From Phycisphaerae bacterium (lineage in GTDB: Bacteria > Planctomycetota > Phycisphaerae > Sedimentisphaerales > Anaerobacaceae): a DNA stretch of 42,378 bases. Numbering within the stretch: position 1 is the stretch's first letter; each line of letters begins with the position of its first letter. The translations under genes were made by a program, and so were the position numbers. This document shows, piece by piece, positions 24,195-28,032 of the stretch. The DNA lies in the NCBI GenBank assembly GCA_030619925.1, contig JAUXAL010000030.1, positions 1-42,378 of the forward strand, in the 5' to 3' direction. The notes under the pieces were generated by a model. That model saw only the letters and a list, made by a program, of their open reading frames with translations. It had not been told where the DNA came from and made no database searches.

Positions 24195-26309
24195 CTACTT
24201 AACCTCTTGAATCTCAATATTTCTCACCTTTGCATCGAGGTTATCATCGAATAGAGGCGAGGAATCTTTTTCATCAAAAGCCACCAATATGCTCTGCTCT
24301 AAATTCTCTTCGTTGAGATGGAACCCATCTGCCAGAAATGTGCCCTCAATCTCAAATGTCACTTTTAACTTCTTCATTTTTTCCTCTCTTTTAAGTATCG
24401 AAAGCGAAAGAATGAGCAAAAATAGTGCCGTAGCTATTAGGCTACTCCACCAAATCTGAATCCCGCAGACTATAAGCAGAATCACTAATAATCCCAAAAT
24501 TACCCAGGTCAAATATGTCGGCAGGATCCCGGAATGCAGCGCTCGCAGAGGTTTTATAAAGGCCAAACCCAGATTCTGGGCTTGGTTGTACAAGTCAAAA
24601 CGGCCTTTTTCTTGCCATGTGTAAAGCTGCTTTAGGCCGTCCATGGATGTAACGGTCTTGTAGAAATGGGTGCCGGGTATTGTCATTTGTTCATTAGTCT
24701 GCACTTCGCCACAGGTCCAGGTGGGCACGATTCTCACTTTTGTTGACAATAAGCCGACGAGTAAAATGAGCAGCCCAAGACCAATACCAACTATTATGAG
24801 GATTGTAGCCAGACCGGATTGCCATGTGCCGAAAATTGCAGTACCTGGTTGTATATTCAGGGCAGGATAAATGAACAGCTTGAGCGGTACGTGATAGAAG
24901 ATTCCGAAAAGCACACACAGCGAAGCAAGTATAACCATCGGAACCTTCATAGAGAGCGAAACTTCTTTAACATCTTTCAATTCAGCTGGCAAGCGAGAAA
25001 GGAATATCGAGTGTATGAGTTTTACAAACGAGGCCAGCGTTAGGGCACTTCCAAACAAGGCGGCAAACAGCCAGATAGGCCATAATCCGGCCCCCTGGGC
25101 GGTATTTTCGGTTCCCATCTTGATTACGCCTTGATAAACCATCCATTTGGAAGCAAACCCATTGAAGGGTGGTACGCCGGAAATACTCAGAGCAGCGATC
25201 AGGCAGGCAGCGAAGGTAATTGACATTTTTTTACCCAGACCGCCAAGCCTATCCAGTTCGGCTGTTCCGGTTGCCTGTTCAACCGCACCGCCACAGAGGA
25301 ACAGACAACATTTATATATTGCGTGGTTTAGCATATGGAACACACCACCGGCAATACCGACAGCCGTGCCTGTTGCTATGCCGAGTACCATATAGCCGAC
25401 CTGACTGATAGCGTGGTAGGATAACAGCTTTTTTAGATTGTGCTGAACCATCGCAATCATCACGGCAATAATAATGGTGGCTGCACCTATAATCGCCAGG
25501 ATGATGCTTAAAACCCCTGATTTAAGTATAAAAATCTCACGCACGATTATAACCAGAAGATAAATGCCCAAAAGTTTGTCAATCGCAGCAGGCAACAGGG
25601 CCATTACAGATGCCGGGGCATATTCGCCACTGGTGGGCAGCCAGGTATGCAAAGGCAAAGCGCCTGCCTTGGTGATGGCGGCTGTCATAAGCAATAAGAA
25701 GGCTATAATTGGGACCGCTGAGGTGGTTGCCACGTTAATATCCGAGATGACAAATGTACCTGAAAGTGCCCATATCATCAGTATCCCAAGCAGAAAAGCG
25801 GCATCGGATGCTCCTATCATTGCGAAACTTTTCGTTGCTGCGAAATTGGAGTTTCTGCCACCTGTGGTTATGAGAAGATACAGCGAAGCGGTAACTATCT
25901 CCCAGAATATCAGCAAAAACAGTAGATGATTGGAAAGCAATACGCCCGCTGCGCCGCCTATTGCAAGTAGAATAGCGCCATAGTACACATTGGCTCGCTT
26001 TGCCTCAGTCATAGACTTTAGTGAATACAAGGCTATTAGCAGGCCAAAACCCATAGCGAACATTAAAATGAAGGCTCCCAGTGGCTTGGCGCTTAGCAAT
26101 AAGTCTAACTTCAGGTTACTTATTTGGAGGACGGGCCAGGCATAATTAAGTTGGCCAAGAGTAAATATCCGGATGGCCAGTGCAAGTGTGATAACCGAAA
26201 TAATTAACGTTAATGCTTTGGACAAAGACTTTATTTTGTTCGGCAAAAATAGCAGAACAGAACCTGCGATCACTGGCAAAAAAATCGGGATAAGCAAAAT
26301 TCTATCCAA
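24195..26309 (-). CDS. Orphan NuoL/MrpA/HyfB-type proton-translocating membrane subunit
   Basis: A 704-residue polytopic protein with about 15 hydrophobic segments. The core matches the Complex I antiporter-like family: FWEIVTASLYLL (E137), ITKAGALPLHTWLP (K214), KLLSYHAISQVGYMVLG and HMLNHAIYKCCLFLCGGAV. Such subunits pump H+ or Na+ within multi-subunit complexes, but no other Nuo, Mrp, Hyf or Ech gene lies nearby. The C-terminal 60 residues are hydrophilic and acidic (from MKKLKVTFEIEGTF). The codons for KREEK just before that Met form a perfect AGAGAGG ribosome binding site, so an internal start at 24377 could yield a separate peptide. Two MerR regulators lie upstream in the same direction. 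Confidence 0.88.
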   Translation of the reverse strand: MDRILLIPIFLPVIAGSVLLFLPNKIKSLSKALTLIISVITLALAIRIFTLGQLNYAWPVLQISNLKLDLLLSAKPLGAFILMFAMGFGLLIALYSLKSMTEAKRANVYYGAILLAIGGAAGVLLSNHLLFLLIFWEIVTASLYLLITTGGRNSNFAATKSFAMIGASDAAFLLGILMIWALSGTFVISDINVATTSAVPIIAFLLLMTAAITKAGALPLHTWLPTSGEYAPASVMALLPAAIDKLLGIYLLVIIVREIFILKSGVLSIILAIIGAATIIIAVMIAMVQHNLKKLLSYHAISQVGYMVLGIATGTAVGIAGGVFHMLNHAIYKCCLFLCGGAVEQATGTAELDRLGGLGKKMSITFAACLIAALSISGVPPFNGFASKWMVYQGVIKMGTENTAQGAGLWPIWLFAALFGSALTLASFVKLIHSIFLSRLPAELKDVKEVSLSMKVPMVILASLCVLFGIFYHVPLKLFIYPALNIQPGTAIFGTWQSGLATILIIVGIGLGLLILLVGLLSTKVRIVPTWTCGEVQTNEQMTIPGTHFYKTVTSMDGLKQLYTWQEKGRFDLYNQAQNLGLAFIKPLRALHSGILPTYLTWVILGLLVILLIVCGIQIWWSSLIATALFLLILSLSILKREEKMKKLKVTFEIEGTFLADGFHLNEENLEQSILVAFDEKDSSPLFDDNLDAKVRNIEIQEVK

Positions 26310-26357
26310 TTTATAAATCCTCCATCTTTAGCCCCGGACGCCGGAATCTTTCCTTAT

Positions 26358-26529
26358 CGTTATTATTGACGGAGCAACCCTGGCAGTTATTATTGCCGCC
26401 TTATGTTAAAAAAAATATCCCAACGGTGTAAAAGCCGCCCTTGACACTTTCTAGACTGCGTCAAAAACGAGGACCCACATAACAATTATTATACGCTCTG
26501 GCCAAGACCCTGACAATAATAATTGCCGA
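26358..26529. promoter_or_regulatory. Cluster of four candidate operators
   Basis: Four similar AT-rich sites lie between the NuoL-like gene and the first MerR gene: CGTTATTATTGACGG (26358-26372), GGCAGTTATTATTGCCGCC (26382-26400), AACAATTATTATACGC (26481-26496) and TGACAATAATAATTGCCGA (26511-26529). Read on either strand they approximate GRCAATNATNATTGYC, an imperfect palindrome of the size MerR dimers bind. Binding by the neighbouring regulators is inference. Confidence 0.5.
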
Positions 26530-26545
26530 TATTAATTAAAAATTT

Positions 26546-26956
26546 TTAGGTTACTCTTTTTTGAGCCTCGGAATAAACTTTACAAGCGCAACACTTATTC
26601 ATTTCCTTAATAGAACTTCTTTGGACTATCGCCCAGCAGGGGTGAGTGTTATTAGCAGAAGCTGGACACCTTTCCTTTTTAACTTTAGGGCAACTTTTGA
26701 TCTTCCAACAAGGAACGACTGCTAATAGACGTTGAATACTAACAATGTTTAACCCTCCTTGGTTAATCAACTTACGAATAAGACGAACCCATTTAAGGTC
26801 TCTATTGGAAAATAAAGTACGCCCATTTACTGGATCACGGAAGGATCTAATCAATCCTTTTTTCTCATATTCTCGGAGCGTTTGCCTGCTTATACCTAAT
26901 TTTTCAGCTGCAATAGTCGCAGAATAAGATGCTTGTTTTTCACTTAATTTTACCAT
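26546..26956 (-). CDS. MerR-family regulator with CW-cysteine tail (copy 1)
   Basis: A 136-residue protein. Residues about 10-75 form a MerR winged helix (AAEKLGISRQTLREYEKKGL, PVNGRTLFSNRDLKWVRLI). Instead of the usual coiled coil and effector domain it ends in a cysteine/tryptophan-rich segment: PCWKIKSCP, ERCPA, HPCWAIVQ, CCACKVY. The pattern resembles the 'two-CW' cysteine motif of some sensor proteins and could bind iron-sulfur, zinc or heme. The start has AAGGG 7 nt upstream. It is a clear paralogue of the next gene upstream; both end VYxEAQKR. Confidence 0.85.
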   Translation of the reverse strand: MVKLSEKQASYSATIAAEKLGISRQTLREYEKKGLIRSFRDPVNGRTLFSNRDLKWVRLIRKLINQGGLNIVSIQRLLAVVPCWKIKSCPKVKKERCPASANNTHPCWAIVQRSSIKEMNKCCACKVYSEAQKRVT

Positions 26957-26986
26957 CTTGAATCCCTTCTTTTCTTAGCGAACACA

Positions 26987-27137
26987 TTGACAATTATTCT
27001 TGATAGTGCTGTTGAAAAAAATATACCCTGTTTTCATAATGAAGAACAAAGTACCATCAGTAGATTTAACTCTCACACTTCATTATTACTTTTCCAATCG
27101 TTGAGCAACACAGACTATAACAATAAAAATTGCCGTT
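26987..27137. promoter_or_regulatory. Candidate operators between the MerR genes
   Basis: TTGACAATTATTCTTGATAG (26987-27006) and ATAACAATAAAAATTGCCG (27117-27135) repeat the core seen at 26358-26529. They lie upstream of MerR copy 1, consistent with autoregulation or cross-regulation (inference). Confidence 0.45.
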
Positions 27138-27150
27138 CACAAGAAAAAAA

Positions 27151-27546
27151 TTAATACAATCTTTTTTGTGCTTCAAGATAAACCTTACAGGTTCGACATT
27201 TATCAGCATCCTTACAATGCTTGCCAGCTATTGTCCAGCATGGCAAAGTCCTGTCCACCACTGCCCCACATTTGTCTCGGATTTCCTTGGGACAATCTTT
27301 AATCTCCCAGCAAGGCATAACCATTAATAAGCGCCTAATACCTTTAATACATAGCCCCTCCTGATGAATCAACTCTCGGATACAACGAATCCATTGAAGG
27401 TCATCGTTAGAAAATAACCTATATCCATTAGATGGATTTCGATAAGGTTTAATTAACCCATCTTTTTCATATTCTCGAAGCATACGGACACTTATTCCTA
27501 ACATCTTAGCTGCGGTAGAAATATTATAGTAGGTAACTCTACTCAC
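27151..27546 (-). CDS. MerR-family regulator with CW-cysteine tail (copy 2)
   Basis: A 131-residue paralogue of copy 1 with a MerR winged helix (ISTAAKMLGISVRMLREYEK; NPSNGYRLFSNDDLQWIRCI) and the same cysteine/tryptophan tail: PCWEIKDCP, DKCGA, LPCWTIAGKHC, CRTCKVYLEAQKR. It has more cysteines around the second CW than copy 1 (C..DADKC..C). The GTG start is preceded by GAGG. The recognition helices differ between the two copies, so their DNA specificity may differ even though similar sites surround both genes. Confidence 0.85.
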   Translation of the reverse strand: MSRVTYYNISTAAKMLGISVRMLREYEKDGLIKPYRNPSNGYRLFSNDDLQWIRCIRELIHQEGLCIKGIRRLLMVMPCWEIKDCPKEIRDKCGAVVDRTLPCWTIAGKHCKDADKCRTCKVYLEAQKRLY

Positions 27547-28032
27547 CGGTTACGGCACCTCATAAAGCTTCGTGCAGAGAAGCTTAATTTTTTAGCCTGT
27601 ATTTGCGCTGTATCGTTTTCTCATACTACAATAATGAGAAATAATCAATATTTTTTGAAATGTCCAATGCTATTTACTCAAAATGTGTGATTTTCGAAAT
27701 GTAGTCGATATAATAATCGATTGGGTTCCTTTTTCAGAAGGTCGAACGAACCGCTAAATGCGATGAGCGTTCGGCGAAAGCGCCCCCTACGTCATTTCGA
27801 GCGAAGCGCAGCGCAGCCGAGAAATCTATCTAATTTTTTCTTCCTTTATAAACATGTCGCAGCAGGTACAATGTCAATATGAAAACATTTTATAAGTAAC
27901 GGCTTGGCAGAAGTATTTAAATAGACCCCTCGGCTGCGCTCGGGGTGACGGTCGTGTTGTTGTGTTGCCTGCGGCTGCGCTCGGGGTGACCAGCACCGAG
28001 TTTTGTTAGGTGTTTTTTTGCAGGTTGGCAGA
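27547..28032. other. Divergent spacer with interspersed repeats
   Basis: No gene is seen. TTCTCAT...ATGAGAA (about 27618-27640) is a palindrome upstream of MerR copy 2. GTCATTTCGAGCGAAGCGC...GAGAAATCT (27791-27829) is a copy of the repeat at 10101. Two copies of CGGCTGCGCTCGGGGTGAC (about 27930-27949 and 27971-27990) look like right ends of the same family in inverse sense. The rnr promoter must lie within or just after them. Confidence 0.6.

Follow-up and report, generated by a model that had tools for sequence, protein, structure and literature searches.

Two small MerR-type regulator genes standing side by side, next to an antiporter-type gene, raise the question of what such a pair senses and what it controls. 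The locus lies in the window, the whole 42,378-nucleotide stretch of DNA analysed here, which is contig C132 of its genome (G000; 4.02 Mb, 92.8% complete, 141 contigs). The two regulators, here called MerR-CW, probably control themselves and a spare hydrogenase antiporter subunit, which suggests that a chemical signal could lead the bacterium to exchange one component of an energy-converting machine.

The order of transcription on the minus strand is MerR-CW gene 2, spacer sp2 (194 bp), gene 1, spacer sp1 (236 bp) and the NuoL-like gene (Table 1), flanked by RNase R upstream and ribosomal protein S20 downstream. A relative from another genus (G059), used as the reference for all between-genera comparisons of this trio, keeps the same three genes in the same order between different flanks, with DnaA upstream and a helicase downstream. 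Measured against the G059 orthologues, gene 2 has a dN/dS of 0.25, gene 1 of 0.28 and the NuoL-like gene of 0.18. GC-rich palindromic repeat units around cggctgcgctcggggtgac lie at positions 27795-27990, in the gap between the two regulators and RNase R. The known-RNA search returned a single match, to CrcZ, which was rejected because its 17.3 bits fall below the gathering score of 95.

Table 1. Coordinates of the genes, spacers and sites discussed in the text (positions in the window)
Feature	Position	Strand	Description
MerR-CW gene 2	27151..27546	-	131 aa, GTG start; wHTH and tail with seven cysteines
MerR-CW gene 1	26546..26956	-	136 aa; paralogue of gene 2, 52% identical
NuoL/antiporter-like gene	24195..26309	-	704 aa, TTG start; Proton_antipo_M 5.1e-54
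C-terminal extension of NuoL-like protein	24195..24449	-	about 80 aa
Spacer sp1, before NuoL-like gene	26310..26545	-	paralogous to sp2
Spacer sp2, before gene 1	26957..27150	-	paralogous to sp1
Site A1	26512..26527		exact motif; overlaps the NuoL-like promoter at five of its six -35 bases
Site B1	26382..26397		130 bp from A1
Site A2	27119..27134		aligns with A1 in the paralogous spacer
Site B2	26989..27004		aligns with B1; 130 bp from A2; 32 bp before gene 1 start
Predicted sigma-70-type promoter of NuoL-like gene	26488..26516	-	TTGTCA-17-TATAAT, 11/12 consensus bases

The MerR-CW proteins and their cysteine tail

The adjacent paralogous MerR genes described in the initial annotation are confirmed as minus-strand ORFs. 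Each encodes a MerR_1 wHTH (PF13411; Pfam E 3.1e-17 and 2.8e-13, above the gathering score), which places both proteins in the MerR superfamily. The nearest PDB relatives of this domain, found with a 12-row profile, are GlnR proteins (7tec at 7.4e-17, 4r4e and 7tea) and assign it to the GlnR/TnrA branch, while the best NCBIfam model is HspR (NF047375), at 46.6 and 54.1 bits, below its 105-bit cut-off. The type of regulator is already known, namely that of the GlnR/HspR-like MerR regulators, of which the tail makes a variant.

The annotation had also described both proteins as lacking the normal effector domain and ending in a Cys/Trp-rich segment, and this description holds. About 55 residues follow the wHTH and make up a C-terminal Cys/Trp tail, with no long helix between the two in the structure model. 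Classical MerR sensors carry a long antiparallel coiled-coil helix and a metal loop at their C terminus, as described in the part of the source consulted (PMC9478572). The coiled-coil effector part of MerR, CueR, ZntR and SoxR is missing in both MerR-CW proteins, which score far below the cut-offs of the NCBIfam models for classical MerR sensors. The same excerpt presents MliR as a MerR-like protein that shares this absence of a classical effector domain, but differs in having a coiled coil and in lacking conserved metal sites and cysteines (PMC9478572). The short N-terminal extension, where the N-terminal dimerisation helix of GlnR/TnrA was looked for, shows no helix in the structure model. 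From residue 101 onward the tail is modelled at a pLDDT of only 37-61 (by blocks), and for this reason no metal site was inferred from the model.

The tail of gene 2 contains seven cysteines (C79, C85, C93, C103, C111, C117 and C120), and that of gene 1 keeps the six core cysteines with Ser in the seventh place; the G059 gene 1 orthologue has also lost the first. Whether these residues are conserved among relatives, a question raised along with the initial annotation, was addressed with 15 proteins drawn from 9 genomes (the window, G059, G151 and G311 with two each, G100 with three, and G013, G770, G691 and G659 with one each). C85, C93, C103, C117 and C120 occur in all 15 and C79 in 14, so that every core cysteine is kept in 14 or 15 members. 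A seventh cysteine stands at the C111 column in 6/15 and is shifted by a few positions in six more (by eye); the members without it are both gene 1 orthologues and the G659 protein. This distribution indicates that gene 2 has retained the full set and gene 1 has drifted. The first tail Trp is present in 15/15 members and the second in 12/15, with Tyr in the other three. The layout CW ... C ... CW ... C..C is shared with the NCBIfam two-CW domain (NF045718), although the MerR-CW tail is shorter and its matches are weak (15.0 and 11.0 bits, below the 35-bit cut-off; E up to 0.1 in 3/12 members), and no protein of the window's own genome exceeds that cut-off. No description of a two-CW or cysteine-tailed MerR regulator appeared among the matches listed in the open-access literature searched.

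Matches to MerR-CW were obtained in 3/90 genomes of the family with gene 2 (1e-8), in 4/392 of a phylum sample with a five-row profile (1e-12), in 5/398 of a class sample with a 12-row profile (1e-12), and in 2/23 and 1/1 in further searches (1e-14); the query genomes are counted in all of them, there is overlap between the samples, and scoring only the best 9 or 10 first-look candidates per genome in the phylum and class samples makes misses possible. Genome contigs, when scanned, yielded one confirmed locus (L007), plasmids gave no match at 1e-10, and viral contigs gave one partial match limited to the wHTH (46%, residues 9-56; L068).

Counting tandem copies once, 12 loci are available, and in an uncontrolled tally redox or energy genes occur in the stretch taken at seven of them and are not evident at the other five. 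The seven comprise the window and G059 loci with their NuoL-like neighbour; G100 C124, with a nitrate-reductase-gamma-like cytochrome and a CCG Fe-S protein; G100 C15, with a tetrapyrrole methylase and a CCG Fe-S protein; G151 C18, with HdrA-, VhuD/G/A- and HdrB-like proteins (below NCBIfam cut-offs); G311 C249, with a formate dehydrogenase-like end, an HmcB-like protein and FdhD; and G311 C67, with ApbE and pyruvate/2-oxoacid oxidoreductase genes some kilobases away. At the remaining loci the neighbour is a methyltransferase (G013) or a GAF-HD-PilZ protein (G151 C3), or mainly raw ORFs were viewed (G770, G691 and G659). Genes for methyl-accepting chemotaxis proteins, both confirmed as chemoreceptor-like, adjoin MerR-CW in G659 (L071 3397-6112) and lie about 2 kb off in G691 (L070 1733-6405).

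These data bear on the role of the tail, which is proposed here to be the sensor. Alternatively, the pair may bind its sites while the tail serves as a structural zinc knuckle and the signal is of another kind, such as a partner protein. The near-invariance of the core cysteines is what would be expected of structural zinc ligands, and the GlnR proteins closest to the wHTH offer a model, in that the GlnR C-tail acts through protein binding, with glutamine synthetase, according to the portion of the study consulted (PMC9249791). The redox or energy enzymes near 7/12 loci speak against this alternative, as does the loss of cysteines in gene 1, which is in keeping with a tunable site more than with a purely structural one, and we consider it rather unlikely, if the strongest of the competing explanations. 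Nothing pointing to glutamine synthetase or to heat shock was seen for MerR-CW.

Paired palindromes in duplicated spacers

The spacers sp1 and sp2 are paralogous at an offset of 605-607 bp and, judged from their alignment, gene and spacer are duplicated as one unit. The initial annotation had proposed six shared operator sites around the regulators and before the NuoL-like gene. Four are supported here, as one A/B pair in each spacer, where the A site comes immediately behind the stop codon of the gene before it and the B site lies 130 bp beyond; the corresponding spacings in G059 are 133 and 132 bp. The other two have no such support, since a candidate near 26359 is not conserved in G059 and one at 26481-26496 retains there mainly its -10 part (the claim gave no positions, and these are taken as the ones meant). 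The sites were also said to occur only in spacers, which is nearly true, the exception being a copy with 2 mismatches inside the NuoL-like gene at 25464. The region upstream of gene 2 itself holds no conserved site.

The sites read about GRCAAT-N4-ATTGYC, a 16-bp palindrome, and A1 and B1 are inverted copies of each other at 13/14 bases. Between sp1 and sp2, identity is higher in site columns than elsewhere, both in the window (25/32 vs 74/146, P 0.0035) and in G059 (26/32 vs 82/155, P 0.002). Between the two genera the same comparison is significant for sp1 (28/32 vs 136/204, P 0.011) and not significant for sp2 (28/32 vs 128/161, P 0.21), and A1 is identical at 16/16 positions. In shuffles of each single spacer (1000 per spacer, with a statistic chosen after the sites were seen), the best repeated pair was reached in 21 for sp1, 18 for G059 sp1, 814 for sp2 and 742 for G059 sp2, and a pair with both members near-palindromic in 0, 312, 1000 and 178, respectively; a clear pass is thus obtained for sp1 only, and sp2 does not exceed its shuffles. 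Intrinsic terminators or attenuators at the A sites were rejected because no T-tract follows on the coding strand; at B1 the scan flagged a stem on the opposite strand alone.

Genome-wide, the motif is not common, and neither this result nor the cysteine conservation, the two conditions under which the initial annotation was to be rejected, speaks against it. With up to 2 mismatches it occurs at 103 places in the 4.02 Mb of G000 against 43 for the reversed control, and at 81 against 43 in G059; 13 of 16 places seen in 13 opened stretches lie inside ORFs. A1 is the sole exact match in G000, and its G059 counterpart the sole one there. The four window sites score 14.7-20.1 with a matrix built from the four sites of G059, an approach that is partly circular given the homology of the G059 spacers. 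In a 400 kb sample of the genome (20 stretches from 7 contigs, several picked from motif matches), three positions reach 14.6, pairs within 250 bp number 0 at 14.6, 0 at 12, 2 at 11 and 4 at 10, and no group of four sites within 800 bp occurs even when the threshold is lowered stepwise to 10. At G000:C48:5919-5957 (L024 2420-2458), where no MerR-CW gene adjoins, an ORF is followed by two copies of the motif that have 2 mismatches each and stand 23 bp apart; they may be a distant target or chance. Near the more distant MerR-CW genes the motif is absent (best score 8.9), so that the link between protein and site rests on two related genomes.

The palindromes could belong to another, unlinked regulator, with the MerR-CW genes merely located beside them. 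The genome-wide excess over the reversed control in both genomes, the C48 copies and the missing motif at distant loci would all be compatible with such an owner. We nevertheless regard it as improbable, given that the 400 kb sample contains no comparable cluster, that the only exact match lies at this locus and that the sites were duplicated with the regulator gene. Still less probable is that the site pairs are leftovers of gene duplication in AT-rich spacers alike by descent, which the homology of the spacers and the failure of sp2 to exceed its shuffles would allow, but against which stand the better conservation of the sites than of the rest of the same spacers, the inverted A1/B1 copies and the best near-palindromic sp1 pair, reached in none of its shuffles.

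A second copy of a hydrogenase-type antiporter subunit

The NuoL-like gene had been described as an orphan coding for a lone membrane protein, a label that proves misleading. Its product is 77% identical to a copy elsewhere in the same genome (G000:C28) and 85% identical to the G059:C5 copy, and its search gives matches at 1e-100 in 39/90 family genomes. The operon copy sits in a large cluster at all six loci opened (G000, G059, G064, G013, G010 and G031). In G000 this operon encodes Rex, a hydrogenase maturation protease, MrpF and MrpG above NCBIfam or Pfam cut-offs, together with sulfhydrogenase beta-/gamma-like, NuoH-, NuoB-, NuoC/D-like and antiporter proteins below NCBIfam cut-offs. The large subunit at the other five loci has Complex1_49kDa and NiFeSe_Hases domains above gathering scores, and the motifs CGIC and CYSC, which we take to be the expected nickel ligands, are present in G000 and G010. 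By its gene content, the sister operon is Rex-headed, [NiFe]-hydrogenase-like and Mrp-containing, and the window gene has its paralogue in the antiporter subunit of such an energy-converting hydrogenase. The supposed orphan is therefore a duplicated hydrogenase-type subunit, outside the Rex-headed operon and under a different promoter.

At 5/6 loci the Rex-type gene is immediately preceded by a Rex-like site (1 or 2 mismatches), and G010 has neither in the stretch taken. The site is conserved and reads TTGTGAATGTGAAC(T/A)CAA (L105 1613, L106 15161, L107 2175, L108 1059 and L110 2129), and the Rex-type gene heads the operon. Rex is a redox repressor that senses NADH/NAD+; it is unrelated to MerR and scores above its NCBIfam cut-off here. 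The window copy differs from the operon copy in its place between the MerR-CW pair and S20, in its extension and in the lack of a Rex-like site at up to 2 mismatches within 26300-27760. Control of the trio by Rex was rejected, the 3- or 4-mismatch matches in that interval being taken as chance.

In the antiporter-subunit tree, which covers 13 of the 42 matches and leaves out G067 and G068 for want of a fitting frame, the window copy pairs with the G059:C5 copy (100/98), and placement is supported for this pairing alone. The C-terminal extension comprises one further hydrophobic stretch and a charged part (by eye) and is absent from the 11 copies compared outside G000:C132 and G059:C5. A 65-aa query from the extension matches 2/90 family genomes, G000 and G059, the same two that carry the regulator pair.

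The hexamers and the 17-bp spacing of the predicted NuoL-like promoter are unchanged in the G059 alignment. The consensus match alone is weak, as a scan of the region found 11 promoter-like places against 5.0 in shuffles. The placement of A1 over a promoter kept in both genera favours the proposed control of the NuoL-like gene, as a predicted regulation. With A1 over the -35 box, the basal effect is most likely repression.

A proposed switch and its known relatives

The reading we prefer, to which we give an even chance, is that of a repressor switch that acts locally, regulates itself and controls an alternative antiporter subunit of the hydrogenase, with the cysteine tail as sensor. The MerR-CW pair would act as dimeric GlnR/HspR-like DNA-binding proteins, most likely binding the paired palindromes that precede gene 1 and the NuoL-like gene. 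Occupancy of A1 would mask the -35 box and repress transcription, perhaps strengthened by looping to B1. The tail, with its six core cysteines and one or two Trp, may bind a metal or Fe-S centre or react through its thiols (the candidate signals being thiol, Fe-S or Zn), and a change in redox or metal state would then alter DNA binding. Derepression would yield the C-terminally extended subunit variant, which might take the place of its sister subunit in the Rex-headed hydrogenase-Mrp complex or work alongside it.

A wider version is conceivable, though we hold it to be on the unlikely side. The energy-converting hydrogenase would have an exchangeable ion-pumping subunit, of which the Rex operon supplies the standard form, while the cysteine-sensing MerR-CW pair switches on an extended spare that alters coupling or regulation. 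On this view the MerR-CW proteins would form a regulator family, so far undescribed, that acts in anaerobic H2, formate and heterodisulfide metabolism, and duplication would have yielded a sensing and a less-sensing partner. If the switch is real, it would be a case in which transcription is regulated for one interchangeable subunit alone of a respiratory-type complex, and the cysteine-tailed MerR family tied to anaerobic energy metabolism would gain its first operator motif and a candidate target.

Among known systems, GlnR/TnrA and HspR, which form the MerR branch without a coiled-coil effector, have the closest wHTH and share short palindromic operators and small C-tails with MerR-CW, which differs in its Cys/Trp tail and operator sequence. 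The GlnR/TnrA operator, TGTNAN7TNACA, is not matched by the window sites. Classical MerR operators lie between -35 and -10 boxes spaced 19-20 bp apart, in contrast to the spacing of 17 and the -35 overlap at the NuoL-like promoter. A precedent for a short MerR-type repressor on a palindrome at repressed promoters is CvkR, which regulates a type V-K CAST through a 15-nt inverted repeat at its target promoters; CvkR differs in controlling a CRISPR transposon, and a Cys/Trp tail is not mentioned in the part of its report consulted (PMC9938897).

Other candidate operators were seen by eye, without statistics, at two sets of distant loci. The single MerR-CW gene of G013, beside the methyltransferase (L053 1406-2752), has a TGACA-N7-TGTCA dyad over the -35 box. 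In G100, all three MerR-CW genes have ATAG-N5-CTAT between their own -35 and -10 boxes (L046 5150-5336 and 5840-6031, L047 3650-3823), a differing operator candidate in the classical MerR position.
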